Source: a virus. From it: a DNA stretch of 64,000 bases. Numbering within the stretch: position 1 is the first letter of the stretch; every line of letters begins with the position of its first letter. Under the pieces are notes generated by a model. It was not told where the DNA came from and did not search any database. It worked only from the letters and a program-made list of their open reading frames with translations. Positions 1 through 44,888 of this stretch are shown here, in pieces. The translations under genes and the position numbers were made by a program. The stretch covers positions 1-64,000 of IMG/VR virus record IMGVR_UViG_3300013772_000003. One strand, 5' to 3'.

Positions 1-1087
1 CAGGTGCAAATACTTTTCCTGTCCAATCCAATGCCCCTAATATTGGAGGCGTTTGCATTGTAGCATCATACGCAGGAAATCCTGAGAAGCCCCCTTTGAC
101 GTCCATAATCACCTGATTGTTCTCAGGAGATTTATTCACGTATTCGCGCAAATCGTTTAATAAAGAGTATTGTCTTTCTACAACTGCGTAAGCTTCTGCA
201 TAAGGAATGCTCCTTTGTTTCGCAAATGCCTCCACCTCGCTCTTCCATACCTCAAACTTCCCGTCCTTAATTTTAGGAGCTTTAGGATTATAGTACGCAG
301 GCTTCCCTGTCTCAGCGGTCGCTCGTTCCCCCTTCTCGTCAAAATAAATAACCTCTCCTAATGGAGAAGTAACCACAAGGTAAACCCCTGTACGAGGCTT
401 TCCTGCATTATCCGGTTTTAATAAAAAAGCTAAGTCATCAGGTTTTAAGTGTTTATTCTCTAAGCGAGTTGTACTCATCAAAGTGAGTTTCACTGCTCCG
501 ACACCTTCGATACGAGGAGTTTCTCCCTCTGGTGTATTCGCATACGCAGCAATGATTTTTTCCTTGATGTCGTTGTAGAACTTCTCCTTCTGCAAATACT
601 CCGCAGTCTGATTCTTTGGTTGTACATCACTTAAAAAAGACATAGGAATAATCAGTTCCGGTTCTTCTTCCGCAGGTTCCTCGTCTATGGTTTCTTCCTG
701 TACTACCGGGTCAAGAGATTCTTGTTGTATCTGTTCTTGCTTTTCTTTTAACTCCGCGATTTTATCTACGTCAGGAGAAACGAAATCTGTTACAAAATCT
801 ATGTTCTCAAAATTAGTTTCATGTCCGATAACTTCTGCAATAACAGGTGCAAGCATCTTCCTGATCGGTTGACGTAATCCCAGAGCAAGAGAAATGTGCT
901 GAGGCAATAAAGAAACATAAGATACACCCAGAGCTTTATCTCCGGTTTTACCTACAACCAAATTATACACAGAAGTAGAATATTCTTTAAAATCAAAAGG
1001 TTTATCTGTCGCTGAGTGGTCTAACAGATCTTTAAATACTTTAGCAAATAACTGCTCTTGTTGTTGTATCGTTAGTGTACAATTCAT
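1..1087 (-). CDS. Partial large virion/cargo-type protein (N-terminal 362 codons visible)
   Basis: An open frame runs from an ATG at 1087 off the left edge of the window, so only the N-terminal part is visible. It starts MNCTLTIQQQEQLF and has an acidic low-complexity stretch around residues 110-145 (many Glu/Gln). The start lies just beyond the stop of the 1495 aa gene (2 bases between), so it belongs to the same minus-strand operon. No catalytic motif is recognisable in the visible part. In crAss-like phages the genes following the tail block encode very large packaged proteins, including the virion RNA polymerase; this gene is in the right place for such a protein, but nothing seen here proves it. 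Continuation to the left would decide. Confidence 0.75.
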   Translation of the reverse strand, partial: MNCTLTIQQQEQLFAKVFKDLLDHSATDKPFDFKEYSTSVYNLVVGKTGDKALGVSYVSLLPQHISLALGLRQPIRKMLAPVIAEVIGHETNFENIDFVTDFVSPDVDKIAELKEKQEQIQQESLDPVVQEETIDEEPAEEEPELIIPMSFLSDVQPKNQTAEYLQKEKFYNDIKEKIIAAYANTPEGETPRIEGVGAVKLTLMSTTRLENKHLKPDDLAFLLKPDNAGKPRTGVYLVVTSPLGEVIYFDEKGERATAETGKPAYYNPKAPKIKDGKFEVWKSEVEAFAKQRSIPYAEAYAVVERQYSLLNDLREYVNKSPENNQVIMDVKGGFSGFPAYDATMQTPPILGALDWTGKVFAP

Positions 1088-1089
1088 AA

Positions 1090-4000
1090 TTATTTACAAC
1101 CTAAATTATTTAAAAAATCTTCTGTTACCTGTGCTGTTGTTTTCTTTTCCGCAGCATCTGCAACTTGTTTCAAGCGGTTAACATCCTGAGTAAAATCAGT
1201 AGTCTTTTCCTGATTTGTTTTAATCAATGTTTTTTCTGCCGGCGTTACTGTTGTTTTTGCTTGCTTCATGTGTGCTGTGTATTTAATATCATCCATCGTA
1301 ATATACCGATTATCTCCTTGTATTGGTAATCCGTTTACGTAGAAACCTTCTACATGAATTTTTCCGTTCTTGCTGCTCACACTCTTAATTTGTACATCCT
1401 GATACTTAGAATTTTTCAAAGTAACTACATCACCTTTTTTCAAAGTAGAAATATCAATCTTAGAAAACAACTCTATGTTTTTTGCTTCGATAGCTTCCGC
1501 AACATATTCATACCAACCGTCTACCGGAGGAATGGTTCCATCTACAAGCGCTTTTTCTACTTCCGCTTTCAACGCCTCTAATTCATCTTCCGTTTTAATA
1601 GCATCTAACTTACCTTGTAAATCAAACTTCTCGATAGCTGCTTCGTGTGCGGCTTCCTCTTTTTGTTTTACCTCTGCAAAACTTGGATTAACTTCTTGTC
1701 TTTGGAAATCTATAACCTCTCCGTTTTTAGAAGGCTCGTTCTTTACAAACAACATTCCAAGATTACCGTCATTCTTACTTCCGTTCTCTTTGTACGCTTT
1801 CAGGAGCTGTACAACGTTTGAGTGCGTCATAATACCTCCGCCGTCTGAAAGAGCGTTTGTTATCTCAGGAAGCGCTGTCAAGACGCGATCTTTAAATTCA
1901 TTGAATGACTCTACGGATTGTCTATCTGCGTAAATCTCTTTTAAAGGTTTACCTTCTGCATTAACATCTTCTCCTGCATAAACTTTTTCCTCTGGGTGAA
2001 GTGCGAACCAAGAATCAATTTTGTGCCAATCCTCGTCGGGTATTCCTGCAAAACCTGTCTTATCGTCACCGGTGTTCCAAGGATCTAATGCTGCGTTTTG
2101 TTCTACAACTACGTCCTTGCCTTTTTTAGCAACCACTTCTGCGGAGTCTATAGCACGCTGTCTTGTAGAAACAATTATCTTGGTTAAGGTCTCATCTACA
2201 TTTCCTTCTGCACCGTCTTCTACGTGTTTTTCTCCTTCAGGAGTAATATGTTCCTGTGTTGGACCAGAGTTAATTCCTTTTTCATCCTCTGCGGTTTCTC
2301 CGTGACGGAAGATTCTTATTTTACCGGTTGCGGTTTGGATGAAGGTTGGTTTGGTTGTTTCAACTGGTTCTTCTTTCGATTTTAAATCTTTAAGGTTAAA
2401 GTAGTCTGTAACAATATCAGCCGCTTTTTTGTAGTCAACACTATCTACCGGAATTGGAGTATGTGCCTGCGCAGCACTTACAAAATTATCAGGCAGTTTA
2501 TTCTCTTTAAAAATTTTATCCAATCCTTTATCATCTATCCAATAGCCTGCATCATGTAAATCATTTAATAAAGCATTTGCGTCTATATTATCACGGTATT
2601 TCTTATAAGCAGCTTCAAAGTTCTCCACACGTTTATCATGTGTTGCTTTGTTTACCTCAGCTAATATTGAAGCAAAGTCCATAAAATGATGCGGATCATT
2701 AAGCACGTTTACCGCCTTAGACAAATCCTTAGAATCTTGGTCAAGCGCATGAAAATCTTTTAAATTATCAAACGTACTTTTTATCTTTTCGTTAAACACA
2801 TGATCATCATTTTTCTTAGCGACCTTCTTAATATAACTTTGGTAAGAATTATAAAACTCCCTTTCTGCGGTATGTAAAAAATGTTCTTTTTCAAGTCCCT
2901 GTATTTCTCCCTTAGTTTCTAAGCGTTCTACACGATGTCTTTTATACTTCTTACCGTTACTAAGCAAAACGCTTCTACCTTGTACTGCTTTTACAAACCC
3001 ATGTTCACCACTAATAGTTTTAACTCTATCCCCAACTTGAATAGCCATGCTTTTCTTAAACTCCACAGATACTTCCGGCTTACGTCTCTCCTCAGAAACC
3101 AGAGATAATGCGTGCTTGTACATCAAAGTATTTTTCAGAATGTCTTCCGCGTTTTCAGCTTGCTCTTTAGTTTTTCTATACTCCGCTTGACTTCCCGGAA
3201 TACCTTTTAACGCCGCCGCTTGATCCTTTAGCATCTTGACATTCTGAGCAAGGTCTTGTACATTAAACAAAGAAGTATAATCCCCAGAAACCCCCTTTGA
3301 AAGAGGAGTGTTTGTACTCGCCTTGTCTGTTATAGCGCCCATCCTCTTGAGCGTCTGATTAAACGAGTGTGCAGAATATATAGCTACTTTCTGTGCGTCA
3401 TCAACTGCCTTCCAACGATGGGATTCTGTTATATATTTGTTCTGACGTTCTTGATACTGAACCTCTGTTTCTTTTTTTGTTTTTTCTCCTGCGTACTTAT
3501 TTGGATCAAATTCATTTTTAAATTGCTCCTTTATAACATCGTGCCTCTTTTGCAAGTAATCAAGATGCTCAACCGTTTCGTTGATTTTTCTCCTGATTGT
3601 TTTATCATCCGTCTGCTCTCCAAACGCGGCTTGCAAATCCTTTCCTTCCAACTTCGACATATCATTGAAGTAATCCTTCAACATCTCCGTCTTACCTGCT
3701 TTTGTTACATTGTATAGATGATTGAATAACGCTTCATCCTGAATATCCAAGAACTGTTTTTTGTCTCCACTCTCCTGCGCACCCTGCATATCCTTCTTAG
3801 CTTCGTACTGAGTCGCCATGTTCTCAGTAAAAGAATTATGTAATTGCTTCGGATCGTTCGCTAATTCGTTTATCGAATTCTCAACGGTAGCAGTAAATTC
3901 TTTTTTATATGCTTTTGCTTTTTCAAAACCAACTCTATCCTTTAAACGAGCAAGGCTCATTGAACCATATTTGTACAGGAGATGTTGTGGTGCTTGTATA

Positions 4001-5577
4001 AACCCCGCCATAAAGAATCCTGATGCAAAGTTTTCTAATCCCCGCCCAGAACCTTGATTTTTCAACCCTGCTCCCACTGAATTTAATAAACTAATTCCTT
4101 CACCATGTCCTCCATTAATTTCACTGTGATACAACTTCGTGTAATAATCAGAGGCAGCATCCTGAATAACAGCTTGTGTACTTTCCTGAATACCTTCTCC
4201 TAAATTGGTAGCCATGTATTTCAGCGTACCTTTTCCAATAGTTTTTGGATGAGCCAAAGTTTTTATTCCTCCGAGTATACTTTTTGAACGAAACTCAAAA
4301 GCAGACTTTAATCCTTTTGCTTTCCAAGACGCGTCTCCTGCTTCCATCACCCCCTCTATTCCCTTCATTGCTTCTGCGCGAGTGTTTGCAAGAGAACGAA
4401 ATCCTTTGAAGGAATTTTCAAACATCATCTTGTTTGTCAGGAATATTCCCAGTGTGTTTGCAAGGCTTGTGTTGAACCCTGCGGACTTCGCTTTATTATA
4501 AATATTTTCTGCAACATCCCCCGAAGGCATCTCTCCAAACTCCTTATAATGCTCTGCTACAAGTTTATCTTGCAAATCTCTTGAGGACTGAGAACCTTCA
4601 AGGGCAGACTCGGAACGAACTAAATTCATCCCTCGAGCGTCTTGATAGAACGAACCAAACGTTTTAAATGTCTTTCCCCACTCCCCTAATTTCTCAGCAT
4701 CTTTTAATTCTTTTACATAAGCTGCTGTGTGTTCAAGAGGATTTAATAATTTACCTATTGATTTTGCACCTGCACCAAACTTTGTATAAAAATCCTTAGC
4801 TGCTCTTACGTCCTTAATCGCATCCAATGCTTTATTAACACGTCCGATATTTCTTGCAGTATCCCATATTGTTTTAATACGCGCACCGGTACGTGCCATT
4901 ATTCCCAACTCTAACGGAGCAGCAGCACCTTCGGTAGCAACAGTTATCCCAGCCCCTATTATGTTCTCTGCTGCCATCTCTAACCCTATCCCGGCTGTGA
5001 ACATAGCATTAGACCCAAAGTTCAGTATAGTCGCTCCTACGCCTCCTCTGGAGATATTAGCGAGCTTCATATTCTCAGACATACTCTTGTCCACCCAATC
5101 TGAACTTGCAAAGGGAGAAACAAAAGCGCTTCCCAATAATTTCATTACAGGAACGAAGCCCCTGCGAGCATCGTCCATCAAAGTAGTGTTCTGATTATAG
5201 AACGCTTCGTTATCTCTATATGGATTAAATCCTAATTTAGAAAACTTTGGATCAGTATAATATCTTTCAAAGTGTTGATCGTTAGAACCCGCACCGTAAG
5301 CGTAACTCTTTCCCCAAAAAGACTTATCGTTAGCCCACGCACCGGCTTGTCCGATATAATCCCCCAACGCATTTGCGTGCGCCTCTGAATTATTTGTAGT
5401 AGGTTTCGGAGTTCCTGTTGTGTAATCTCCAACAAGCTGTTTGTTTATGCTTATTGATTTAGGTTGCGCTTGAAAAGGTACTGTAGTCTGAGGAGTACGC
5501 AGTTCGTTAGCAGCATCTAAAATACTTTTCTCTCCAAGAGGAACTATGGGATTTTGAATTTCTGTGTTTTCCTCCAT
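1090..5577 (-). CDS. Giant virion (cargo-type) protein with embedded histidine-phosphatase domain
   Basis: A 1495 aa protein in the cargo-gene block. Residues ~150-235 are hydrophobic/amphipathic and Gly/Ala-rich, a possible membrane-interacting region; the middle is mostly Lys/Glu-rich helix; an SH3/KOW-like stretch (QVGDRVKTISGEHGFV) follows it. Residues ~1085-1270 form a histidine-phosphatase superfamily branch 1 domain: RHGET with R1091/H1092, the STRQRAIDSAE motif with R1139/R1141, an acidic SFNEFKDRV segment, and MTHSNVV with H1252. These match the phosphate-pocket and catalytic His/Arg positions of phosphoglycerate-mutase-like phosphatases. A second small SH3-like segment (LKKGDVVTLKN) follows. 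The ATG overlaps the stop of the 987 aa gene by one base (translational coupling). Packaging and ejection are inferred from position; the substrate is unknown. Confidence 0.85.
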   Translation of the reverse strand: MEENTEIQNPIVPLGEKSILDAANELRTPQTTVPFQAQPKSISINKQLVGDYTTGTPKPTTNNSEAHANALGDYIGQAGAWANDKSFWGKSYAYGAGSNDQHFERYYTDPKFSKLGFNPYRDNEAFYNQNTTLMDDARRGFVPVMKLLGSAFVSPFASSDWVDKSMSENMKLANISRGGVGATILNFGSNAMFTAGIGLEMAAENIIGAGITVATEGAAAPLELGIMARTGARIKTIWDTARNIGRVNKALDAIKDVRAAKDFYTKFGAGAKSIGKLLNPLEHTAAYVKELKDAEKLGEWGKTFKTFGSFYQDARGMNLVRSESALEGSQSSRDLQDKLVAEHYKEFGEMPSGDVAENIYNKAKSAGFNTSLANTLGIFLTNKMMFENSFKGFRSLANTRAEAMKGIEGVMEAGDASWKAKGLKSAFEFRSKSILGGIKTLAHPKTIGKGTLKYMATNLGEGIQESTQAVIQDAASDYYTKLYHSEINGGHGEGISLLNSVGAGLKNQGSGRGLENFASGFFMAGFIQAPQHLLYKYGSMSLARLKDRVGFEKAKAYKKEFTATVENSINELANDPKQLHNSFTENMATQYEAKKDMQGAQESGDKKQFLDIQDEALFNHLYNVTKAGKTEMLKDYFNDMSKLEGKDLQAAFGEQTDDKTIRRKINETVEHLDYLQKRHDVIKEQFKNEFDPNKYAGEKTKKETEVQYQERQNKYITESHRWKAVDDAQKVAIYSAHSFNQTLKRMGAITDKASTNTPLSKGVSGDYTSLFNVQDLAQNVKMLKDQAAALKGIPGSQAEYRKTKEQAENAEDILKNTLMYKHALSLVSEERRKPEVSVEFKKSMAIQVGDRVKTISGEHGFVKAVQGRSVLLSNGKKYKRHRVERLETKGEIQGLEKEHFLHTAEREFYNSYQSYIKKVAKKNDDHVFNEKIKSTFDNLKDFHALDQDSKDLSKAVNVLNDPHHFMDFASILAEVNKATHDKRVENFEAAYKKYRDNIDANALLNDLHDAGYWIDDKGLDKIFKENKLPDNFVSAAQAHTPIPVDSVDYKKAADIVTDYFNLKDLKSKEEPVETTKPTFIQTATGKIRIFRHGETAEDEKGINSGPTQEHITPEGEKHVEDGAEGNVDETLTKIIVSTRQRAIDSAEVVAKKGKDVVVEQNAALDPWNTGDDKTGFAGIPDEDWHKIDSWFALHPEEKVYAGEDVNAEGKPLKEIYADRQSVESFNEFKDRVLTALPEITNALSDGGGIMTHSNVVQLLKAYKENGSKNDGNLGMLFVKNEPSKNGEVIDFQRQEVNPSFAEVKQKEEAAHEAAIEKFDLQGKLDAIKTEDELEALKAEVEKALVDGTIPPVDGWYEYVAEAIEAKNIELFSKIDISTLKKGDVVTLKNSKYQDVQIKSVSSKNGKIHVEGFYVNGLPIQGDNRYITMDDIKYTAHMKQAKTTVTPAEKTLIKTNQEKTTDFTQDVNRLKQVADAAEKKTTAQVTEDFLNNLGCK

Positions 5578-8540
5578 TACTGTTGTTCTTGTACAATTCC
5601 TTGTGCAGCTAAACTTTGATTAAGCGCTTCCACTGCTTTAGCACCTTTTACAACTTTAGGATTCTTATTGTGAACGTCCGTCAAATACTGATTATTCTGG
5701 GCTTCTAATGCTGTAAATTGATCATCCAAATTCTGAAACAAAGTTTTAGAATTAATGTGTGGTTGAATATCAATATAACTATAAGCCTTTGTCTCCACCT
5801 TTCCGTTATCATTCACAAAAGGAATAGTCGCGTCTATGTGATACCCTTGCCCATCCTTACGAGCCCTTACTGCATACGAACCGTCGTGAGAAAACTTCCT
5901 AACCACTTCGTCCCCACCATTAAGGATTATATCCGTTTTAGATGGAGCAATATCATTTTTATAAACAGGATTTTCAGTTTGGTCTTTAGGAACAAAAAAC
6001 GTTATTGAATTGTTTTCAGGAGGATTTCCTCCGAGGATTCCGGGTTTTTTATCTGTACCGGTAAGCGACCTTTCGTGCATCCATGACTGAGGCAATGTAA
6101 CAGTATACTGAACTAAGTTAGGATTGTTTGCGGCTATTCCCACTACCTTAAAATCTGTAACAGGGTGGTTCTTTCCTTTTCCAAAATCTCCCGATTTAAT
6201 TGCATTGAAAAAAGTCTGCGCCACAAGGCGAGCATTAGCATCGTCCCCTATTCCAGCGTAATCTTTGTCTGTAATATTATCTCCACTTCCCCAAATAACT
6301 TTCTCTACTTTTCCCTCCTTCAAATCCTGTTCTACTCCTAAAATTCCCTGAGTTCCTGATTGGTTGGGATGACTTAAGTCCGCTACCTGTGTGATTGGTT
6401 TAGTAGTCAATCCCCCAGACCCTCTTGACACAGAAACATTTTGAGAGTAATGAGCTAATTTTCCATTATCATTCTTCTCATACTCTGCGTACTTGTCCGC
6501 AAGTTTTGTGTACGTATCCTTTGCATCCTCCGCAGAATTAGCATCAAGAGATTTCTGCTTTGCCCAAGCAATAGCCGCAGGTTTATTCATACCGGAAGAC
6601 AATGCAAATTGGGTGTTAGCTTCAATGCGCTTATTAACATAACTACGCACAAACTCATTTTCACTAACAAACCTGTTGTCCTTAAATGCTAAATCTTTAG
6701 TCGCTTTCAAATCGGTATCTAAAGAAGCATCCGTATCAAACATTCCCTTTACTACTTTATCATTCTTCTCCTGAATGGTTCGTATTGTATTGGAAGCATC
6801 TGCAGTTAATTTTAACTTCGCTTCTAACGCATTTATATTCGATACTAAATTTCTTTGTTCAACCCCAAGGACAACTCCATTCTGTTTAGTAGAAGTATAA
6901 TCATCGTACACCGCCTTTACGGTGTTAAATGTTTTGGTTAAGTCTTTTACCTGCTTTTGTGTAAACTCTTCCGAAGCAAATGTTTTATCTTTCTCCGAGT
7001 TCCAATCGCGCCCTACAATCTGTTTAAAAGCATTCTTTGCGTTTGTAACTTTGTCCGGATCTTTTGAATTTTTTATAGTACCTACAAAATTATCCAACAC
7101 AGAAGTAACGTAAGTCTGAGCGTCATTAATTGTTTCTCCACCAAGTTCGTGCAGTTTTGCTTCATTGTCTCCTTTTACTGAAAACTGATGAGTAGAAGAC
7201 CCTGCTCCCGGTGCTTGCGCCGTTTGATTCGGATCTACTGTAGGATTATCTCTTTTGTGTTTTGCAGTTTCAAAATCTTTTTTAAATTGTTGTTCGTCTT
7301 TGTGCTTCATCCAATCATATTGGTGCGCAGAATTTTGTAACGACAATGCGTAAGAATGTTGTACAGCAGCTAATCCGTAAGGATCATCCTTTTGTGTTGA
7401 CTCAGAATGAAGTTGAGTCCACGACTCAGCGCCCAAATCAACATGGTCATGTAAATAGTCCGCAGCAAGAAGTCCTTGTACTTTAGTTATCAAAGATTTT
7501 CTGTCTCCGTTTAAAGGCGCTTTTACTAAGTTTGTTCCTTGCTCTGTAACCTTGTGGGCTCCCTCAGCGTTTTGTTGATTTCTTTTTACCTCTGCCCATG
7601 AGGTCGCTAATCCGTCATCTGGATTTTCAGGATCTACGCCATGTGTCTTTGCTAAACTTTCTACAACCGCCGCCTTATTACTTACAGCAGCTACTTGTTG
7701 CTTTAGATGAGAATCTCGTTTTAATGCTTTATCGGATAGCTCCTTGTATTTAGTATTCAGATAATGTGATTCGGCAGCATCAGCACTTCCAAACTCAGGA
7801 GTGGTTGCTTCTATTGTAGATTTCATATCTACATACGCTTGTGTTTGAAACATCTTTTGCATTGCAGGATCATTTCCAAACTTTGCCAGCAGGAGATTAT
7901 GCAACGGACGCTCTATTAAGGCGCCGTTCTTATGGGTGTATATCCACTTGCCGTCGCTTTGTGTTGCTACCACATCTATTTTCTGCTCATTCGCAAACTT
8001 TGCTATTTTACTTTGCACATCAATATATGGAGTAAAATCAGGAGCCTGCATCTTAAGTCTGTCCTCTCTACTTGCGTTTTTAAAATCTTTCGCCCAATAC
8101 GTTTGTTCCGCCATCCCTACATCCCAATACTGTCCTCCGCACTTATCCGGATCAGTGCAATCCTTCAAACTCTCTCCTTTACCTATATTGTTCTGCCATT
8201 GCTTAGTTTTCACCATATCGTTGATGATGTCCTTATTGTCGTATAAAGGACGAAACGCACCCATAGCAGCGCTTACATTCTGTTCTTGCGATAAATCTAA
8301 TTTAGAAATCTTTTTTACTTCTCCCTCCATCGCTTTGAAAAACTTATCTCTCGCTGCAATGTTTTCTTCTGCTAACATAGGAGCATTCAACAATGTACTA
8401 TATGCCTGACTTATTTGACTATGCGCAGCATCATACTGTCCCTGACGTGCTTGTAAAATATTCGCGTGGTAGTTTAAATCGGGGCGAAATGGTTGAAGAG
8501 CCGGGATAAAGTCTTGGTTGCCGTTGAGATATGTTGCCAC
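5577..8540 (-). CDS. crAss-like conserved large virion/cargo protein (987 aa)
   Basis: Begins with a GTG codon (GTG GCA ACA TAT). The N-terminal region with ALQPFRPDLNYHANILQ, the YSTLLN segment and LDLSQEQNVSAAMGAF resembles a family I know from crAss-like phages, where it sits beside the packaged proteins. The rest is charged and largely helical with no catalytic motif. It is encoded directly upstream of, and coupled to, the 1495 aa gene. A 112-base gap before the start holds a direct repeat and a promoter-like TTTG-N20-gATATTTG, suggesting its own transcription start. Likely role: a structural or ejected protein in the head or tail; inference from context and remembered family resemblance only. 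Confidence 0.85.
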   Translation of the reverse strand: MATYLNGNQDFIPALQPFRPDLNYHANILQARQGQYDAAHSQISQAYSTLLNAPMLAEENIAARDKFFKAMEGEVKKISKLDLSQEQNVSAAMGAFRPLYDNKDIINDMVKTKQWQNNIGKGESLKDCTDPDKCGGQYWDVGMAEQTYWAKDFKNASREDRLKMQAPDFTPYIDVQSKIAKFANEQKIDVVATQSDGKWIYTHKNGALIERPLHNLLLAKFGNDPAMQKMFQTQAYVDMKSTIEATTPEFGSADAAESHYLNTKYKELSDKALKRDSHLKQQVAAVSNKAAVVESLAKTHGVDPENPDDGLATSWAEVKRNQQNAEGAHKVTEQGTNLVKAPLNGDRKSLITKVQGLLAADYLHDHVDLGAESWTQLHSESTQKDDPYGLAAVQHSYALSLQNSAHQYDWMKHKDEQQFKKDFETAKHKRDNPTVDPNQTAQAPGAGSSTHQFSVKGDNEAKLHELGGETINDAQTYVTSVLDNFVGTIKNSKDPDKVTNAKNAFKQIVGRDWNSEKDKTFASEEFTQKQVKDLTKTFNTVKAVYDDYTSTKQNGVVLGVEQRNLVSNINALEAKLKLTADASNTIRTIQEKNDKVVKGMFDTDASLDTDLKATKDLAFKDNRFVSENEFVRSYVNKRIEANTQFALSSGMNKPAAIAWAKQKSLDANSAEDAKDTYTKLADKYAEYEKNDNGKLAHYSQNVSVSRGSGGLTTKPITQVADLSHPNQSGTQGILGVEQDLKEGKVEKVIWGSGDNITDKDYAGIGDDANARLVAQTFFNAIKSGDFGKGKNHPVTDFKVVGIAANNPNLVQYTVTLPQSWMHERSLTGTDKKPGILGGNPPENNSITFFVPKDQTENPVYKNDIAPSKTDIILNGGDEVVRKFSHDGSYAVRARKDGQGYHIDATIPFVNDNGKVETKAYSYIDIQPHINSKTLFQNLDDQFTALEAQNNQYLTDVHNKNPKVVKGAKAVEALNQSLAAQGIVQEQQ

Positions 8541-10006: not shown

Positions 10007-10008
10007 GA

Positions 10009-11085: not shown

Positions 11086-11103
11086 CTATTTTAGACAAGG
11101 AAA

Positions 11104-18214: not shown

Positions 18215-21200
18215 TTATCTTGGAGATTGTTGTAGTTTTTGATCAGCCAAAATCAACAGGATTTTAACCTTACCAACAATATCCTTACGTAACCACACAG
18301 AGTTCTGATAATTTCTGAATCTTTTGTGCTCCGTAGGCGATTTTGCATAATCAAGATTAGCGTTGTTCAAAGCACGCACATACCCATTTGGGCTCGTATT
18401 CCAAATCATACGCCTTGCATTAGAAAATTCCCCACGATCAGACGTTAGATCGACCATTTGGTTGAAACGATATTTGTTCTCTACCTTGCTATACAAAATA
18501 TCAACACTACCTGCATTGTATTGAGGAAACGAAAGCTCTTTCCAAGGATCATTGTGAATGATCGGATTGAATTTAAGCATACCACTGCACTGCTCCGGAT
18601 TCCATATCACGGCTTTATCAAAAAAGTATTCCAACATTAAATATCTGTCATGGCAATTCCCTGCATCATACAGATAGTTCTCCATCTGTAATTCAATGCT
18701 ACGCAGCACATTCACTTGCTGTCCCGTATTAACTCGAAACTCAACCTCAAAAGGATAGTCAACTCCAAAATAATTACAATAAGAATCACATAAAATATTA
18801 TGAACATACAATCCCCCGGCGCCCAAACTGTCCGTCTGTGTGGTAAGGAACGTGTTCTTACCCTGCATCGTTAACTCCGGTTTCCAGTCGTGAAATGAAA
18901 TCCATTCCTTAGTCTTCGGATCGTAGCTTGCGGTGAAGCTCGCATCCTCAAAGTACGTAGGATCACCAAGCTTTATAGGAAGAACTCCTCCCACCTTGAA
19001 ATCATTCCTACCCGTATATTGAATTGAATTTGGCACCATAGAAGCACTTGTCACTACTACAAAACCATCTTTTAGTTTGTAATCCTTCTTCATAAAATAC
19101 ACCAAAGTATTTTGCTGATCAAAGGTAGATTGTGTTCCTACACCTATAACCGGATTATCTGTTAACTCAAAATCAGGAAATGATTGTGTCAGCATACAAG
19201 GAAGGTACTGAGCAAACCACCAATTCAAGTCTGTTCCTGATATTTCGGACATTCCCGCGCCCAACTGGTATTGAAATATATTACCGGTGCTTTGAGAAAT
19301 CCAGTACACACCCATAGGCGTATTAATCACAGACAATCTACCTTGACAAGATGCTGTTTCAAAGGACTTCTCTGCGTTTACCAAACTCTGCAACGGACGC
19401 GAGAACAACGCTCCTGTACCGATGGTGATTTCTGTATTTCCCATCTGCAAATTTTCTATGCTAACCATCTGCAACGGAGATTGATTCCCAAAGAAAAACA
19501 AGGCTCCTGTCTTATTGATTGCTTTTATATCTGTTACCGGCGTTATAAAATCATGGTAATTATTCGCTAAAAATATTAACCACGCATCCTTAATTGATTC
19601 CGATGATTGTTGATTTATAGCAGCAAAAGGTAAAGAAAATAAAACACGATTCTTATAGTGTACAAAACAAGATTCGTAAATAATAGGATCGTAGTTTATT
19701 GGTTGAATATTTGCCCAACTGATAAACGATGGAAATAATTTTGAAATGCTTAAACTGTAATCGTATTTGAAATAATTTCCTGCCTTAATAATGTCAGGAT
19801 TCATATCAAACATTGCTTTCTCGTCGGTATAACGATATGGATCGTAGTAACGCTGATTAATATTATCACCCCAATCTCTTAACTCTGTATTTACATCGGA
19901 CTCTACGAAAAAGTCACGAACCCCTGAGTTGGACAAATACATGTACGCATCCTTTACTCCGAAAAAACCAGATAATCCTCCTCTATCAAAAGCGTGCAAA
20001 CTTTGAGGCAAAAGATTAGTCCAAGAGCCTGTGGTAAATGCGGTTCCTAAACCAGAAATAACCTCAGCAATATCCCACTTATGCGTATCCATCCAATACA
20101 TAGGACGCGGCACATACTCCTTTAAACGATAATCAAATTCATATCCGTTAGGCTGTCCGTACATCCAATCGTAAAAGAAAAACATTGTGTTCTTCTCTGT
20201 GTAACGGGATACATACGTATCGCCACCAAATAGGACAGGGCTTACCACAGGAAACTTCCCTGCTGTACTAATAGTGCAAGAGCCTATTGGTATTTGATGT
20301 ACGCCGCCGATTTGTCCATATTGATTTTGAAGACGATTTTTAAGAGCCGTATAAGAACAGATGCTGAATGTGTTGAGAGGAATCAAAGGGTCCTGATGAG
20401 TAGGTCCAAGTCCTGTAGCTGTGTGTAAAGTTTGTTTTGTGTTATCTCCTGCCAAAAGACTTAACCCTACTGCTGTTTGTAAAGCAACAGATTTACCTCT
20501 GAATAAGTTATTAACCCTATACCCCGTACCTAAATCCTGCAATTGATCTTCAAGGTAGATTTCGTCAGAGATTGTTCTGCGAGTTTCTCCCAAGGAAGTG
20601 TTTGCAAACCCATCATAAAAACAATGAGACATATATTGTAGGGCATGTTGCTCCCAATTCAAAAAAGCTCTAATTAGATCAAGCGTTGTGTCCGTTCCTT
20701 GAGACCAGTAATTCACAAAAGCGGGAATTCCATTCAACATTCTTAAGAACGTAGGCACATTATCCCCGTCATCCTCTGTGGTTTGTTTTCCGTACCCGGT
20801 TGTTGACGGGACAATGTTGGTTGCATTAGCTAATCCTGCCAAGGCAAGATTCCACGCCTCTCTTCCCAATCCCGTTAAGGCAGTTATACCCGCTTGTGCT
20901 CCTCCAGTGAATCCTGTATCGACTCCACCCTCAGCCAAATCTGCTGCGGCGACTGCGGCGTCTCCCGTAGCAATAGCTGCAATTGTAGTAGGGACGGGAA
21001 CTAAATTATCCAAACCCCACGCTCCAGCTCCCGCAGGACCAACAAAAATACCAGACTCAACGGTTCCAATCCTTGTCGGATAAATTCTGGTTGTAGTACG
21101 CTGTCCAAGCGAGGAAATCATTGCAATACCTACCCCGGCGATTACCGCAGAAACAAAAGCTAAATCTGTAACAAACTTATGTCTTGGGTGCAGGTGAGGT

Positions 21201-23326
21201 TCAACAAAGGCTCCCGAAGCTGTCCCTACTAAATGCCCATACACCTTCAACTCCTTCATAGATAAATAAGGATTTCTGAATTGCGTGTCAGGAGAATGGA
21301 AAGTAAAAACATTATCCCTCACTGCGCTGTTGGGAGGGTACGTGACTGTGTTTACAACTCCTGTTCCAACCGACTCCGCTGTTTCTGTCAGAGAAGAAGT
21401 AATAAAATAATCAGCGCCTACATCATTGTATGGGTAGTTTGGATAAAGTCCGTTTCGTGTAGTAGAACCTCCCGGAATAACATACTCAAACATATTATTT
21501 ATGATCCCCTTCGCTACAATCGTTTTGTTTCCCTCGCGACTTCCCCTTAAAATACGGTATCCCACAATACCCGGAACCGGTGTTAACCCGTCATTTAAAA
21601 GTGGTTTTTTTATGTTCTCGTATTTTGTACCTAAAATTCTTATTGCAGGCTTACCCCCAAAATTAGGGCTGCTGTTGGTATAGTGCTGAACTGATGTATC
21701 TGACGGTGTTCCCCACAATCTCTGTTCAGGAAACTTGTGGTGTCTGATTGGTTTACCGCATAAATCATAATCTGTCGCGCTCGTTCCCGGGTACGGAGGA
21801 GTAAAGGCACCAAACGTACTTGCATTATATACTAATGGTTTGTCATCAGGATAAAACTCGGTGGATTCATGGTATCCCATCAAACCTTCTGATAATAAAA
21901 ACCCTTCTCCGTCAGGTGACGGTGTGTTTGGAGGATATGTAAAAGTCAACTGCGCCGTGTTATAAACCTCGAAAACTTTTTCAGAACTCAAAGGATCTAA
22001 CCAATCGGTAGTCCCACCAACTGCGTTTTCCACCAACCCAATTAATGTACCAGAAGTAATGGGTATAACAGGTCTACCGGGAATATGATAGGAAGAACTT
22101 AAGTCTCCGTCATCATATATCCACTGAATAAACTCGCAATAATTTTCATCACGCAAACGACTCGTAGCACTTCCTCCTTTACGATAGTAGTCCGCAGGAA
22201 ACTCTGTGCTTACCCACTTGGTCACAATTTGATTAGCAAGAGGTTGATAGTTGAAATCAAATTTGTTTGTTGGACTTGTACGTAATAAATAATTTCCTAC
22301 TTCATAGATTGCATCAGACTTATCTGCTATTGGGTTATGTAATGGTATCCAAGCTAACGGAACAGTTGTAAGTGTTGGGTCAATAATGTCAATTGAAATT
22401 CTTTTCTGACGCGTGCTGTATGTACCAAATGATTTAGCCTCTGTTTGCTGATTTACAACACTCACTACAACGAGTTCAAACTCATCGAAGCGGTCATCCA
22501 TACTGTCAATAATAACATCAATAGAGCCGGCTACATTCGAATGATCGAATAAAGGTTGTACGTTGGACGGAGCAAAATAATCAGTAACACGTTGTCCGTT
22601 TACTTTATAAGCCGCGATTACAAAATAAGAACCGTTAAAAAGACTTCCGCCTCCTGAACCTTTAACTACATGTAGACACGGGGCATTAACTAATTTTGCA
22701 AGGCGAATCGCATCAGTATCAACAACAAATCCTGTGTATTGTACTGGCGCAAGCGCAACGTAGTTTACACAAGTAATACAACCAACAGGGTAAAAAGGAG
22801 AGCTTGGAGGTTGTGTACCTAACTGAGTATTTCCTGAGGAATCAGTGCACAATTGTACGAACTGAGGTTTGTCCACATTCAGTGTACGATCCGGATTATT
22901 CCCATCCGCCCAATAGATATGCCAAGAGCAATCGAAGTTTTCTTTTGATACCCCTATAATTAAATTTGCACGATTAAAGTTTAAGAGAGGAAAGCCTGCG
23001 GGGTAATATGAATCATTCGCGATTGTTGTGTACGTCTCAGTACCTTCAACAAATCTTCCTATTTCTGAATTAACATCGTTAGTAGAAAATACTATCCAAT
23101 TATCTGCAAATAAATAAATGAATCCAACGATTGTGTATGGAGCTTTGATGCACTCTTTGTTGCTGGGTTCTGACGAAATATCAAATATGTCGCCGGTCGG
23201 AGACCAGTTGGTAGCATTGCGTGCAAAAGTCCATTGCGAAGACTTCGAGTGGAAGTCCTTTACGTCGGTATTGAGACCTCTGTCGAAGGAATCTGTCTTG
23301 TTATTATTTGGGTCTTGTTGTGCCAC
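18215..23326 (-). CDS. crAss-like tail stabilisation / muzzle protein (1703 aa)
   Basis: The N-terminus (SFDRGLNTDVKDFHSKSSQW then TFARNATN, YTIVGFIYLFADNWIVFST, NSEIGRF, SWHIYWADGNNPDRTLN) is the characteristic start of the giant tail 'stabilisation'/muzzle protein of crAss-like phages, which closes the end of the tail. A Gly/Ala-rich hydrophobic stretch (VTDLAFVSAVIAGVGIAMIS and following, residues ~720-860) interrupts the beta-rich body and could insert in or occlude the channel. Start codon is GTG, 5 bases after the stop of the 365 aa ring protein gene, so both are translated from one message. Long for the family, but the N-terminal match is strong. Confidence 0.9.
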   Translation of the reverse strand: MAQQDPNNNKTDSFDRGLNTDVKDFHSKSSQWTFARNATNWSPTGDIFDISSEPSNKECIKAPYTIVGFIYLFADNWIVFSTNDVNSEIGRFVEGTETYTTIANDSYYPAGFPLLNFNRANLIIGVSKENFDCSWHIYWADGNNPDRTLNVDKPQFVQLCTDSSGNTQLGTQPPSSPFYPVGCITCVNYVALAPVQYTGFVVDTDAIRLAKLVNAPCLHVVKGSGGGSLFNGSYFVIAAYKVNGQRVTDYFAPSNVQPLFDHSNVAGSIDVIIDSMDDRFDEFELVVVSVVNQQTEAKSFGTYSTRQKRISIDIIDPTLTTVPLAWIPLHNPIADKSDAIYEVGNYLLRTSPTNKFDFNYQPLANQIVTKWVSTEFPADYYRKGGSATSRLRDENYCEFIQWIYDDGDLSSSYHIPGRPVIPITSGTLIGLVENAVGGTTDWLDPLSSEKVFEVYNTAQLTFTYPPNTPSPDGEGFLLSEGLMGYHESTEFYPDDKPLVYNASTFGAFTPPYPGTSATDYDLCGKPIRHHKFPEQRLWGTPSDTSVQHYTNSSPNFGGKPAIRILGTKYENIKKPLLNDGLTPVPGIVGYRILRGSREGNKTIVAKGIINNMFEYVIPGGSTTRNGLYPNYPYNDVGADYFITSSLTETAESVGTGVVNTVTYPPNSAVRDNVFTFHSPDTQFRNPYLSMKELKVYGHLVGTASGAFVEPHLHPRHKFVTDLAFVSAVIAGVGIAMISSLGQRTTTRIYPTRIGTVESGIFVGPAGAGAWGLDNLVPVPTTIAAIATGDAAVAAADLAEGGVDTGFTGGAQAGITALTGLGREAWNLALAGLANATNIVPSTTGYGKQTTEDDGDNVPTFLRMLNGIPAFVNYWSQGTDTTLDLIRAFLNWEQHALQYMSHCFYDGFANTSLGETRRTISDEIYLEDQLQDLGTGYRVNNLFRGKSVALQTAVGLSLLAGDNTKQTLHTATGLGPTHQDPLIPLNTFSICSYTALKNRLQNQYGQIGGVHQIPIGSCTISTAGKFPVVSPVLFGGDTYVSRYTEKNTMFFFYDWMYGQPNGYEFDYRLKEYVPRPMYWMDTHKWDIAEVISGLGTAFTTGSWTNLLPQSLHAFDRGGLSGFFGVKDAYMYLSNSGVRDFFVESDVNTELRDWGDNINQRYYDPYRYTDEKAMFDMNPDIIKAGNYFKYDYSLSISKLFPSFISWANIQPINYDPIIYESCFVHYKNRVLFSLPFAAINQQSSESIKDAWLIFLANNYHDFITPVTDIKAINKTGALFFFGNQSPLQMVSIENLQMGNTEITIGTGALFSRPLQSLVNAEKSFETASCQGRLSVINTPMGVYWISQSTGNIFQYQLGAGMSEISGTDLNWWFAQYLPCMLTQSFPDFELTDNPVIGVGTQSTFDQQNTLVYFMKKDYKLKDGFVVVTSASMVPNSIQYTGRNDFKVGGVLPIKLGDPTYFEDASFTASYDPKTKEWISFHDWKPELTMQGKNTFLTTQTDSLGAGGLYVHNILCDSYCNYFGVDYPFEVEFRVNTGQQVNVLRSIELQMENYLYDAGNCHDRYLMLEYFFDKAVIWNPEQCSGMLKFNPIIHNDPWKELSFPQYNAGSVDILYSKVENKYRFNQMVDLTSDRGEFSNARRMIWNTSPNGYVRALNNANLDYAKSPTEHKRFRNYQNSVWLRKDIVGKVKILLILADQKLQQSPR

Positions 23327-23331: not shown

Positions 23332-24429
23332 TTATCTACTAAGTGATGCACCCGAAGCTGCGGAATAATCAAAACCGTTATAACTCGAAAACATGGAGTA
23401 ATATTTGTTCCATTGTGCCTTCCTGTTTACAACGTACATCTCATTCATCTCCGTCCAGTTAGGTGTGCGCACAATTGCTTTTGCAGCCCCCTGAGCAATC
23501 TTTCTCTTCTCAGTGAAGTAATGCAACTTCTGTACCATATCCTCCCCCTGCATCATTAGATTTTCACAAATTCTTTCCTTAAGGGCATATTGGTGAAATT
23601 CCGAAATAACTTCGTGATCAGGAACCAATAAATTTCCCTCTTCGTCCTCAAGCATTCCTTCGTATGAGAGATAGACTTGTCCGCAACCATTGTTATGATG
23701 CCAGTTGGTGTACAACCACCCATCTTTAATCCACGCTTCATCTGCGGATCGCATATACAAACCCGGACAGCCGCACTCTATGCCTTGAGCATTGTTTATA
23801 AAACGTAATGGGTGCAGGTGGTTATAAGTCCTTGTGCCGGTACTTACCTTTTGTATTACTTCTACACAATCCCCTTTACAGTTCAGGAAGACTCTTGGTT
23901 TTTTCCACCAGTCCCCACCCGGTTCTTTTGGATTGAAAACAGCTTCCTCACAAACATTTGTTGGAGCACATGAACACGGAGTTGCTCCGCATCCACAAGA
24001 AGGAGTTGCTGTCTGCAACACGGCTGTACCACATCCACAGGGAACCAAATGACAGTTAGAACACACTACCGGAGCAGCACAAAGATTAACAGAAGCAGGT
24101 ACAGACCGCACTTTAGGAATCAATTTCTCTTCAAGATGGGTTCCCTGCGGCACTACAAAAGTTTCTGTATGACTTCCGCACATCATTGCAAAATTCACAG
24201 TATAAAAGTCTTCTGGAAGTCTAACTCTCCCCTTCTCCAAATCAAGTAGAGTTTCTTTAGTTTTATAGATACGCAGTCCTAATATATAATTACACCTGCG
24301 AGCAACACGTATCAAAGACGCAGGATCAATAAGGTTCTCCAAGGCATACGCAGAAAAGTCAATACGTACGTCACTTAGAAGTTGGTCAAACGTCTGGTAC
24401 TTTAAAGTATAGTTAGAAATTCCTGACAT
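23332..24429 (-). CDS. crAss-like tail ring/hub protein (365 aa)
   Basis: N-terminal segments LKYQTFDQLLSDVRIDF, ASLIRVARRCNYILGLRIYK, TKETLLDLEKGRVRLPEDFY and VNFAMMC are typical of a conserved crAss-like tail ring protein found directly upstream of the muzzle gene. An unusual Cys-rich insertion follows (CSNCHLVPCGCGTAVL, CGCGATPCSC; residues ~120-165), which could bind metal or form disulfides. The C-terminal half is helical with aromatic residues. It lies 4 bases after the 223 aa gene. The assignment rests on remembered family features and position. Confidence 0.85.
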   Translation of the reverse strand: MSGISNYTLKYQTFDQLLSDVRIDFSAYALENLIDPASLIRVARRCNYILGLRIYKTKETLLDLEKGRVRLPEDFYTVNFAMMCGSHTETFVVPQGTHLEEKLIPKVRSVPASVNLCAAPVVCSNCHLVPCGCGTAVLQTATPSCGCGATPCSCAPTNVCEEAVFNPKEPGGDWWKKPRVFLNCKGDCVEVIQKVSTGTRTYNHLHPLRFINNAQGIECGCPGLYMRSADEAWIKDGWLYTNWHHNNGCGQVYLSYEGMLEDEEGNLLVPDHEVISEFHQYALKERICENLMMQGEDMVQKLHYFTEKRKIAQGAAKAIVRTPNWTEMNEMYVVNRKAQWNKYYSMFSSYNGFDYSAASGASLSR

Positions 24430-24433
24430 CTGA

Positions 24434-25105
24434 TTACTGTTTAAGTGCAGAAATATTATCTGCTGCTGGTTCTTTCGGTATCTGAATTGTTCCTAATAAA
24501 TCATTCTTCACATTCTGCTCAATCTCTGCAAATAAATATTCCGGTATATGCGTCTCCTCATCCTGTGCTAACTTGCAAGGATCGCCACAACACAGATATT
24601 GTTCTACGCTGTTTTCAGGAAGTACTTCCATCTTCGCCGCGTCCCACTCAATATCCGGAAAATAAACCTTCTTATCTATAAACCAGTAGTAATGATTTTG
24701 GTTGTATTTGTAAGTAGAGGAGTTAGCAATGTCCACAAACGTTGCAGGATTTGTTTTAATGCAAATAATGGAGCCATCAATTGAAGTAATAGAACGAAAC
24801 AGCGGACCATACGTTCCTTCAAAAATATCAGGCAAGTCCTCCTTAGTTCTTTTGATAGTACATCCTGATTTGATTCCACCGCAACACGCAGCTACTTTGT
24901 CGACCTCTTCAAGCTCTACACAAGGAAGTGTTACAAACAGACTCTGAAATTTCATTATCTTGTTCTGATCATCAAGTCGCTTCAAATATAGTTTAGCATA
25001 CTTTATAGCAAGAGAATATAAGAAACGGTCTGTCAGGAAAGCATCTTGTTTCGCCGCCTTCACGATGTTTCTCATTCTTGATATGGTATCTCTTCTTCGC
25101 TGCAT
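24434..25105 (-). CDS. crAss-like tail ring/tubular protein (223 aa)
   Basis: Segments TISRMRNIVKAAKQDAFLTD, RFLYSLAIKYAKLYLKRLDD, CCGGIKSGCTIKRTKEDLP, EGTYGPLFRSITSIDGS and YYWFIDKKVYFPDIEWDA correspond to a strongly conserved crAss-like tail protein family in this genomic position. Several cysteines (CC, CCGDPC) may be structural. The ATG overlaps the stop of the 212 aa gene by one base. Expected to form a ring of the short tail between connector and muzzle. Confidence 0.85.
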   Translation of the reverse strand: MQRRRDTISRMRNIVKAAKQDAFLTDRFLYSLAIKYAKLYLKRLDDQNKIMKFQSLFVTLPCVELEEVDKVAACCGGIKSGCTIKRTKEDLPDIFEGTYGPLFRSITSIDGSIICIKTNPATFVDIANSSTYKYNQNHYYWFIDKKVYFPDIEWDAAKMEVLPENSVEQYLCCGDPCKLAQDEETHIPEYLFAEIEQNVKNDLLGTIQIPKEPAADNISALKQ

Positions 25106-41562: not shown

Positions 41563-42117
41563 TTAACAGGCGACTTTAAAGTTTAAATTTGCAAATTCTC
41601 CAAAATGTTTTTGTGCAGCAGAATCATAAGCCATTGCTGCCATTAATTCTCCTTCTGGAGTGAAAGGAAAAAGTCCTAATCTTATCTTTGTTCTATCGGG
41701 ACATATTTGCGATAACCAGTAAGTATACTCATACTCTCTAATTCCGGGCTTTCTTTTATTTGTACGAACACACTTCTGTATATACTTACACACTCCTAAA
41801 AACCCAGAGCTACTACCCGCTCTTGAAATTGTATTTACTGCATTTTGCTTTGGAGTAGCTATTCGTAAGTTTTTTCGTTGGTTATCTAATGTATCATGAT
41901 TCTCGTGGTCTACAACCTTCTTATCCCCCTTAATACATCCCATAAGTTGCCGGTGCATTTTTATGTGATTACGTGTCCCGTCCCTACGCTCCGCATACCA
42001 AGCAGGCGCTTTACGACTCTCATCCCGATGCGCAAACCACTTCCATTGCATCAAGAAATCATAATCCTCGTCATCTACTTGTGCAAATTTTCCTTGTGTT
42101 AGCGGAATTAATTTCAT
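41563..42117 (-). CDS. HNH homing endonuclease with AP2-like DNA-binding domain (184 aa)
   Basis: N-terminal VDDEDYDFLMQWKWFAHRD is the usual start of HNH-AP2 phage endonucleases. The HNH core follows at ~50-90 (KMHRQLMG, VVDHENHDTLDNQRKNLRIA), with NAVNTISRAGSSSGFLGVCK leading into the C-terminal AP2-like domain (TKIRLGLFPFTPEGELMAAM, AYDSAAQKHFGEFANLNF). The ATG overlaps the portal gene's end by 4 bases, so it is translated by coupling to portal. Related to the gene at 62867-63346. Confidence 0.9.
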   Translation of the reverse strand: MKLIPLTQGKFAQVDDEDYDFLMQWKWFAHRDESRKAPAWYAERRDGTRNHIKMHRQLMGCIKGDKKVVDHENHDTLDNQRKNLRIATPKQNAVNTISRAGSSSGFLGVCKYIQKCVRTNKRKPGIREYEYTYWLSQICPDRTKIRLGLFPFTPEGELMAAMAYDSAAQKHFGEFANLNFKVAC

Positions 42118-44888
42118 TTCTTTTTTGTTTTGTTTTTAGCAGCAAGTTCTGATTTTGATTTATTTTCTTTGGCTATTTGTAAATCTATGTTTTTCATCTG
42201 CATCTGTAACGCCATTTTCTCTCGCTGCACCTGCTGCTTGTCATTATTTAAAAGCTGTTTAGATTGCTCTTTGCTTTTTTCCAAATTCATTTGTTCGGTG
42301 AATGCGTCTTGTTTTTGTATTAAGCCCATTGCATCAAGAAATTCATTCTGCCCATTCGCGTCCACATCAACCGCACTACCATAACCAGCAGCACGTATCT
42401 CAGCAACAAGAACATTATTCTTCTCTCTGTTCGCTGCTAACACAGCCTCTCTATCATAAGCTAATTGGGATTCTTTTGCTATAGCTTCGTTTTGTGCATC
42501 CTGCATTTGTTGTTCATGCGCACGCTCTTCCTCTTTTGCCTTGGACGTTTTTTCTTCTATAGTTTTGAGTACGTGCATAACTTCCGCCTTAGAATCACCG
42601 TTAAACATCAGATCTCCTAAATCGTATATGGTAGCACCCGTAGTATTGTTAGTCATCGCCTGCTTCTTAAATTCTTCAAGAAGAGTTCTTGTCATTGAGT
42701 CCGTTGTACATTCCACGCCGATTTGGGCAAGAAGCAACTCTGTTCCGTTGATTTCAAAATTCACACGCTCATCTTTAGATGTCACGTACTGCAATCGTAT
42801 AGAAGGTTTGGTAGACTGATAAAACTGAGCAAGGTCTGTTCTCATCTGATGGACCCTTGGGAGTAAACGATCTGTATACCTTGTGAAATAAGGCTCTGTT
42901 TGTGCATAAGAAGCGTTCAGATTCTGTTCCGCACCGGTTGCAGTCTGTCTGCCCAACTCTTGTCCCATACGCTGAGGAGTCACTCCTATTGAAGAATATG
43001 CTTCCTGTTTAAAATGGTTTGCAAGATTGATACGACTTAATAGACGCTGCGTCTGTGACAGATCAAGTTGAGCATACGGCTGTCCACTTATCTGTCCTTC
43101 CATATTAGCAACAGAGGTATCAATGGGAATTACTCCAAAATTCTTTGCAGCTACAAAAGCTTTTGCAAAGTTGTTTTTTCCCCAATCCTCTCCAAGAGAA
43201 TGTTGTGGAAGTGCATTTTGATCAAGCATAATAACAGTACCAATCTCGTCGATCAGGATGTCCTGAATCTGATTGTTCACCATATTGTACCCCACCTGAA
43301 ACGGTTTCAATAAGTCTACAAGAGAAATAGAACGAGTATTATAGTCAGAAAATACTGCACCCTCAACCGGCAACTTACACCCGTAAAGCGTTTTGTCCCC
43401 CTTAAATTGAAACTTCAAGGGACCCATTTGGTTTTGATTTATTCCAAGATAGAGTGGATTCACTCCGCCGGGATTCTTCATTCCCCACCAACTTGGACGG
43501 TTAGGACCTATTTTAAGTCCTCCCCATGTTTGGTTAATCCAAATCCATTCTATGTGCTCACCAAAAACCAATGTGTCAGCATCTTTGTTTTTTAGCAGGA
43601 GGTTGTTGTAAACCGGATGATCGGTCACTTTATAGTCCTCATCAACGATGTCTGTAATTGTTTCCCCGTTCTCCTTAATCTTTGTAAGATGCCCTACCTT
43701 ACGCTGAGATTTCCAATAAATAGTAGATGCGCGTAATAAAAACGTAGAGCCCAAATCCGTGTAATCTTCCTGCTGACTCATTATCCAATTGATAATATCG
43801 CCATTATTGGCATCTAAATCGCGGGTAGAAACAAGTTGTCTGTAAGCTAAACCCGGAGGTGCTGTGTTCCACTCATGGCTTTGCGTAGCATCATAATATG
43901 ATCCATCGTTTTGGTACCCGGATAATCCATAACCAACAGCTCTAACAGGGTAAAGTATCTCCAAAGATTCCAATTGCTCTGCGGTCATTAACCATCCATA
44001 CTTATCTACAACGTCTGCCACGGTAAGCATTTCTACGTTTCCTACATAATTACCTTCGGACACGTAACGAACCGAAGGAGACTTATGGTAAAAGGTTGTA
44101 ACCGGGTTCCATGCCTCAATATCATAATCATCTTCCAACATACGGAAGTGAAAAAAAGCTCTGTCGGCAGACAGGCTATTACTAAAGTTAAGTTCCTCTA
44201 ACTCTTTTAATTTAAAATGCGCTGTATCTGCGTGGAATTGGTGCATCGCCCACTGCTCTGACATACTGCGATAAGTCTTACTGTAAAATTGGTGTATCTC
44301 AGGAAGCGACTTCAAACTGTCTGGGGAAAGCTGTTGCTTCATCTGCTCCTGAACCTGTGGATCATTCGGGTCAAGTCCTTGTTGAATCATATTGTTCAAC
44401 ATTTGCTTCTCCGCGTCTGCCATAAGCACGTCACTTATTTGAGAAATTTTTTGAGCGTCTTTTTCGTTTTGTGAAAACTCATCGGTGTTATAAAAAGTAA
44501 TTTTACTGTTTCGTTTTGCAAACTCAGAGCAGAAAGTATTTATGATTGGAGGAATGAGGGGATAAAAACCAAGCTCCAAACCGATAGGCGCTTCTTTCTG
44601 TGTAAGAACTTCTGCAAGGTCGCGCATCTCATTATCCTGAACAACCATGTAATCACTGTTGTCAATAATTCCTTTGGACAGTTTATAATTTTTCATCAGT
44701 CGCGGAGCGTTGCGACGTATTTGTTTTAGTCCGTTCCATTCTAAAAAATCTATGGTGCTCGCTAAATGTTCGGGTGTTTTATCTTTGCGAGGAAGCATCT
44801 GAATCGGCATACTAAGAACGCCCATAGAATTAGTCTCTGGCGAAGCTTTCTTTCCTTTGAACAAATCGTAACTTGACAAAACTTGCAT
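42114..44888 (-). CDS. Portal protein (924 aa)
   Basis: Directly follows the terminase gene. Large portal with N-terminal helical region (NGLKQIRRNAPRLMKNYKLS), central NPVTTFYHKSPSVRYVSEGN, LYGCKLPVEGAVFSDYNTRS, and SIGVTPQRMGQELGRQTATG, a stretch typical of portal wing/stem regions; the C-terminal ~200 residues are Gln/Lys/Glu-rich coiled coil (barrel extension). Long, as in crAss-like phages. It has a TATATTTG box (44913-44920) and an ACTCCAC leader. The HNH-AP2 gene is coupled to its stop codon. Confidence 0.88.
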   Translation of the reverse strand: MQVLSSYDLFKGKKASPETNSMGVLSMPIQMLPRKDKTPEHLASTIDFLEWNGLKQIRRNAPRLMKNYKLSKGIIDNSDYMVVQDNEMRDLAEVLTQKEAPIGLELGFYPLIPPIINTFCSEFAKRNSKITFYNTDEFSQNEKDAQKISQISDVLMADAEKQMLNNMIQQGLDPNDPQVQEQMKQQLSPDSLKSLPEIHQFYSKTYRSMSEQWAMHQFHADTAHFKLKELEELNFSNSLSADRAFFHFRMLEDDYDIEAWNPVTTFYHKSPSVRYVSEGNYVGNVEMLTVADVVDKYGWLMTAEQLESLEILYPVRAVGYGLSGYQNDGSYYDATQSHEWNTAPPGLAYRQLVSTRDLDANNGDIINWIMSQQEDYTDLGSTFLLRASTIYWKSQRKVGHLTKIKENGETITDIVDEDYKVTDHPVYNNLLLKNKDADTLVFGEHIEWIWINQTWGGLKIGPNRPSWWGMKNPGGVNPLYLGINQNQMGPLKFQFKGDKTLYGCKLPVEGAVFSDYNTRSISLVDLLKPFQVGYNMVNNQIQDILIDEIGTVIMLDQNALPQHSLGEDWGKNNFAKAFVAAKNFGVIPIDTSVANMEGQISGQPYAQLDLSQTQRLLSRINLANHFKQEAYSSIGVTPQRMGQELGRQTATGAEQNLNASYAQTEPYFTRYTDRLLPRVHQMRTDLAQFYQSTKPSIRLQYVTSKDERVNFEINGTELLLAQIGVECTTDSMTRTLLEEFKKQAMTNNTTGATIYDLGDLMFNGDSKAEVMHVLKTIEEKTSKAKEEERAHEQQMQDAQNEAIAKESQLAYDREAVLAANREKNNVLVAEIRAAGYGSAVDVDANGQNEFLDAMGLIQKQDAFTEQMNLEKSKEQSKQLLNNDKQQVQREKMALQMQMKNIDLQIAKENKSKSELAAKNKTKKK

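Follow-up and report, generated by a model that had tools for sequence, protein, structure and literature searches.

What does a histidine phosphatase do within a giant protein of a crAss-like phage, and how would such an enzyme enter a host cell? These questions are raised by a 1495-aa protein (hereafter protein A) encoded in the window, i.e., the whole stretch of DNA analyzed here, which spans bases 1-64,000 of a viral contig 74,772 bases long. Judging from its portal, its muzzle-family protein and its crAss ring proteins 1 and 2, the source phage is crAss-like. The genes and regions relevant to the argument are:

2..1087 (-): start of protein B, the next giant gene, with MNC at the N-terminus; cut by the contig end after 362 residues
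1090..5577 (-): protein A, a predicted 1495-aa giant cargo protein of the crAss001 gp47 family, with the single cysteine C1494
1093..1122 (-): C-terminal motif EDFLNNLGCK of A, residues 1486-1495, containing this lone cysteine
2338..5430 (-): conserved N-terminal core of A, residues ~50-1080, the sole part common to its relatives
5577..8540 (-): a 987-aa neighbor, present at the same place in relatives, without a terminal cysteine
18215..23326 (-): protein of the muzzle family, matching the annotated muzzle of csAssE-Sib (E 2.5e-62)
23332..25105 (-): crAss tail ring proteins 1 and 2 (PF24228 and PF25702)
42114..44888 (-): portal protein, phrog_6547 (PHROG, E 2e-84)

The ORF of A is intact. As it is open under translation table 11, an alternative genetic code was ruled out, and so was a chimeric contig, because the family core, the phosphatase, the family C-terminal motif and the MNC of B follow one another in order on one contig.

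Several other genes of the window deserve a brief record. The 987-aa neighbor (5577-8540) has two cysteines near its start, six residues apart, and a pair with the same spacing is present in most of its relatives. Two ORFs of 450 and 358 aa (8654-11085) correspond to separate parts of a single 820-aa protein of a relative, and the gene appears to be split in this phage. A glycosyl hydrolase family 25 lysozyme (51512-52111; E 6e-30), a DUF4407 protein (52379-53527; E 3.4e-54), and GIY-YIG and HNH endonuclease genes (59889-60587 and 62837-63346), the latter two probably homing or mobile, were also identified.

The preliminary description took the bulk of A for a packaged crAss-like cargo protein, and this assignment could be placed on a firmer footing. 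A comparison of A with annotated phage records gave no protein match at E 1e-5, and none of its relatives turned up when viral contigs were scanned with the whole protein. The relatives were reached via relatives of the portal protein in viral contigs, and two further scans yielded 38 loci, some of which overlap. What the close relatives have in common with A is the core, and they lack the phosphatase. A profile of 25 A cores matched crAss001 gp47 (E 7.8e-7), cr85_1 gp56 (E 8.5e-15), the 2208-aa protein of csAssE-Sib (E 1.3e-12) and, weakly, phi4:1 gp038 (E 7.4e-5), with no clear match to cargo proteins of other kinds. The gene order, in which A follows the muzzle gene and lies ahead of the polymerase chain B, is also that of gp47-type cargo. 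It should be stressed that crAss001 gp45, 46, 47, 49, and 50 were detected in virions by mass spectrometry (PMC10172136), and that the notes of the database record for phi4:1 gp038 assign it to the virion on the basis of proteomics. By profile similarity and gene order, A is a member of the crAss001 gp47 virion-cargo family, and it is very likely packaged as cargo in this phage as well. What did not survive is the picture of an isolated oddity, since the phosphatase turned out to be one option in a variable enzyme region. The phosphatase itself comprises the following parts:

1798..2313 (-): predicted histidine phosphatase domain, branch 1, residues 1089-1260
2293..2307 (-): RHGET, residues 1091-1095, with R1091 and the nucleophile H1092
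2152..2169 (-): STRQRA, residues 1137-1142, with the pocket arginine R1141
2068..2088 (-): LDPWNTG, residues 1164-1170, with P1166 at the usual position of the catalytic Glu
1885..1911 (-): ESFNEFKDR, residues 1223-1231, identical in the two other viral histidine phosphatases found
1816..1830 (-): MTHSN, residues 1250-1254, with the second pocket histidine H1252

The domain had been proposed for residues ~1085-1270, and a Pfam search bore this out, as residues 1089-1260 matched PF00300 (His_Phos_1) with E 9.8e-13 and 48.6 bits against a curated cut-off of 21.7. The NCBIfam alpha-ribazole phosphatase model matched the same stretch (E 8.5e-8), under its equivalog cut-off, and a profile of the A domain with one viral relative retrieved Bacillus PhoE/YhfR (E 2.7e-12) from the PDB. 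The AlphaFold2 model, which covers residues 1075-1285, was of modest confidence (mean pLDDT 60.5, pTM 0.66). All the Foldseek PDB matches listed for it belong to the histidine phosphatase superfamily (best E 4.7e-7, probability 1.00), in agreement with the alpha/beta phosphatase fold expected earlier, and structure alignment of the model by VIA gave Z values of up to 9.1. The domain is divergent, being 13-23% identical to solved structures, and, like the rest of A before C1494, it is devoid of cysteine. The viral copies match phrog_12933, a family without a named function. Sequence profiles and the predicted fold make it near certain that residues 1089-1260 form a branch 1 histidine phosphatase domain.

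All four pocket residues are present in A (R1091, H1092, R1141, and H1252), and RHGET and MTHSN were found where the preliminary description had placed them. From STRQRA both R1139 and R1141 had been assigned to the pocket; R1141 was retained as the arginine of the S-x-x-x-R-A motif, and R1139 was rejected in its favor. Similarly, the "full set" of residues claimed earlier is complete for the phosphate pocket and does not extend to the general acid, since the PhoE-type Glu aligns with P1166, in a loop of low confidence in the model. The other viral copies, L003 and G001, have P or A at this position. Lacking a Glu at the customary position, the enzyme may be only weakly active or inactive. Three aspartates (D1165, D1171, and D1172) are located near P1166 in the sequence, and one of them could act as the general acid. 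We consider catalytic activity of the domain rather probable.

Two other readings of the domain have to be weighed here. It may be a relic or a phosphate/ligand-binding module serving for binding or packing without catalysis, for which both the proline or alanine in place of Glu in the three viral copies and the divergence from solved structures speak. However, the four pocket residues have been kept despite this divergence, the P/A-W pattern common to the three copies suggests a subfamily using another acid rather than decay, and the nearby aspartates argue in the same direction, so that we regard this reading as possible but doubtful. It was also considered that the phosphatase acts late in the producing cell, in assembly or in pre-lysis control of the host, its presence in the virion being incidental. 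This would be consistent with the late expression reported for crAss-like cargo genes (PMC10136315), but for such a role a free enzyme would suffice, whereas this one forms part of a cargo protein with relatives that are packaged in virions, which makes a purely late function quite unlikely.

The phosphatase is rare, being present in one of the 26 A proteins and in one permuted copy, that of G001. Searching annotated phage records with the domain gave no match over most of its length, and a scan of viral contigs revealed only two viral relatives; L167, a candidate for a third, was discarded as spurious, the match lying within an unrelated protein that resembles a portal. A scan of genome contigs added one weak bacterial relative. 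In G001 (L104, ORF 8684-19900, minus strand), where A and the polymerase form a single fused protein, the C-terminus of this protein holds the histidine phosphatase in two pieces with the order swapped: profile positions 71-159 come first and are followed by 1-73, an arrangement like that of a circular permutation. The evidence for this permutation is that of the sequence, because the AlphaFold model of the permuted domain reached a pLDDT of 34. Both phosphatases are located close to the end of a protein followed by a gene break. In the literature searched, no paper joins crAss-like phages with a histidine phosphatase, which agrees with the earlier remark that such a fusion was not known to have been described; so far as the searched papers go, a phosphatase on a cargo protein is new.

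Enzyme modules on A-type proteins are already known, given the annotation of p-crAss gp45 ("RNAP associated protein fused to zincin protease") and the PDDEXK domains published for large transcription-associated proteins of crAss-like phages (Yutin 2021, PMC7886860). The former resembles A in that an enzyme is fused to an A-type cargo protein (so classified by position and the cysteine rule) ending in a C-terminal cysteine (1956 of 1957), but it carries a zincin instead of a phosphatase and two further cysteines, and no direct profile match between it and the core of A from the window was found. The latter likewise have an enzyme domain within a giant cargo protein, in that case a nuclease, and a phosphatase is not mentioned there. 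Among the 26 C-terminal parts compared in this work, Pfam indicated PDDEXK_1 in 11 and His_Phos_1 in that of the window only, and motif searches added further nucleases and zincin motifs. The C-terminal region of A thus looks like a variable enzyme region, occupied by a nuclease in many relatives and by a phosphatase here.

A larger surprise than the phosphatase is the architecture of terminal cysteines, which the preliminary description did not notice. In the window, A has a single cysteine, C1494 of 1495, second from the C-terminus, and all complete A relatives in the set likewise have a single one, at most 10 residues from the C-terminus. For the metagenomic A proteins this amounts to a C-terminal cysteine in 23/23 and to no other cysteine in 42,902 residues. 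When the named crAss-like phages are compared, a cysteine is always present at the C-terminus of the first cargo protein (14/14) and never at its N-terminus (0), middle proteins have cysteines at both ends (7/7), and the last protein has an N-terminal cysteine (13/13) and never a C-terminal one (0), while terminal cysteines occur in 0-7% of background ORFs of the same loci. As homologous proteins are not independent, no probability was attached to these counts. In the 26 C-terminal parts, whose mean column identity is 12%, few columns are near-invariant, that of the cysteine being among them, and B relatives have a cysteine at residue 3-7, their N-termini differing otherwise.

The pattern can be followed along individual genomes. 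In phi14:2, the only cysteines are C1797 of 1797 in g067, C3 and C2179 of 2180 in g066 (the virion RNA polymerase), and C3 in g065. The series of crAss001 consists of gp47 (C2339), gp50 (C5, C2404, and one internal cysteine), and gp49 (C5), and that of phi4:1 of gp038 (C1957), gp037 (C4 and C516), and gp035 (C3). Extra internal cysteines are present in some first, middle, and last members of the named phages. It is also worth mentioning that crAss002 gp33 was counted from a start codon that differs from its annotation (probably MSC..., L158 16243), and that the last giant gene of csAssE-Sib (L159 1-1500), which looks split by a frameshift and probably starts with MTSTC..., needs a non-annotated start and was left out of the counts. 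A cargo-block gene of p-crAss, gp47 (L152 35141-37714; 857 aa), has a lone cysteine at position 856 and lies outside the series. No description of terminal cysteines in crAss-like cargo was found in the literature searched (mostly papers available without subscription), and the pattern is apparently unreported.

The position of these cysteines is best understood from gene breaks and fusions. Profiles of B relatives matched phi14:2 g066 (E 1.2e-28) and crAss001 gp50 (E 2.8e-24) with their C-terminal half, and their N-terminal portion, which carries a zincin motif in 23/23, matched the C-terminal part of crAss001 gp47 (E 6.7e-9). These matches came from longer B relatives; an alignment of the 362 residues of B from the window with partial relatives produced none. 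The B relatives are predicted to be zincin plus virion RNA polymerase chains, and since their matches are split over gp47 and gp50/g066, the domain order is shared and the gene break displaced: it falls before the zincin in the group of the window and after it in crAss001 gp47. In cr1_1, Fpv3, and G001, A and B are fused, with no cysteine near the lost junction, and the short middle proteins inserted in phi4:1 (gp037) and L139 have cysteines at both ends. On the basis of the displaced break and the cysteine-free fusions, the cysteines track breaks and not sequence. The summed length of the cargo series is 4,300-6,558 residues. In phage N4, gp50 (a single-chain polymerase of 3500 aa), gp51, and gp52 have 0 cysteines.

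The simplest reading of this pattern is that a disulfide replaces the peptide bond between successive cargo proteins, because the cysteines follow the breaks, inserted proteins have them at both ends, and the single-chain N4 polymerase is free of them. We infer, with somewhat more than even confidence, that the cargo proteins are coupled end to end by disulfides for ordered ejection. Disulfides are present in the crAss001 tail, there with partner proteins, and ejection in that phage is thought to proceed from N to C with partly unfolded chains passing constrictions of <50 angstroms (PMC10172136). Under the proposed mechanism, A would be packaged in virions and, on infection, would be ejected into the host before the DNA. 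The lone C-terminal cysteine of A would pair with the residue-3 cysteine of B, later members would pair likewise, and the cargo would form one head-to-tail chain, which would thread out from N to C with A leading and with B and any last protein pulled by the preceding end. The reducing cytoplasm would then free the cargo proteins, which would refold. The phosphatase, delivered with A, would refold there too and, as infection begins, might hydrolyze a small phosphomonoester, be it a nucleotide, a cofactor, or a signal. The nearest solved relatives of the phosphatase act mostly on small phosphomonoesters. No protein of the thioredoxin or Dsb family was detected among 20 further window proteins scanned.

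The terminal cysteines might instead anchor each protein to a third part of the virion (e.g., the portal or a core protein), or mark the ends for processing or folding. This would be in line with the disulfide bonds of crAss001 tail proteins to their partners (PMC10172136) and with the terminal cysteine of p-crAss gp47, which does not obey the rule. However, it does not account for the missing N-terminal cysteine of the first protein and C-terminal cysteine of the last, for the cysteines at both ends of inserted middle proteins, or for the loss of cysteines at fused junctions, and we find it rather unlikely. Far less probable still is that they are functionless leftovers of a general avoidance of cysteine, kept by descent. 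Cysteines are scarce or absent in many of the virion proteins here, and the ejected proteins of N4 have none, but avoidance predicts zero cysteines and not exactly one at the end, and neither the near-invariance of this residue in such divergent C-terminal parts nor the C at residue 3-7 of all the dissimilar B N-termini would be expected from it. Disulfide coupling of successive proteins is preferred on these grounds. On balance, the best overall explanation comprises a cargo protein A with a variable enzyme region, a phosphatase in that region, and a disulfide-linked chain.

Amongst known systems, crAss001 gp47 is close to A in its homologous core, its place between muzzle and polymerase, and its lone C-terminal cysteine, but it has PD-(D/E)XK and zincin motifs in place of the histidine phosphatase, and the gene of A ends earlier in the shared domain order. 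PhoE/YhfR, CobC, RosC, and phrog_12933 share with the A domain the fold, the RHG, the S-x-x-x-R-A, and the second histidine; unlike A, they are small free enzymes, and PhoE has Glu where A has P1166. The virion RNA polymerase of phage N4 is, as crAss-like cargo, giant, ejected, and cysteine-avoiding. It is, however, one cysteine-free chain, whereas in crAss-like phages the cargo consists of several chains that bear terminal cysteines.

One puzzle of phage biology is how megadaltons of folded protein pass in order through a narrow tail, and in the human gut few viruses are as abundant as the crAss-like phages. The leading cargo protein may be viewed as a platform for swapped early-infection enzymes, now including a phosphatase. 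It seems moderately likely that A, the virion RNA polymerase, and the last subunit are stitched via their terminal cysteines into one reducible chain, the leading member of which delivers, in this phage, a phosphatase. Such coupling, if real, is a new way to order protein ejection, and a reducible end-to-end chain, which can be tested with cultured isolates, would answer the question of ejection order.
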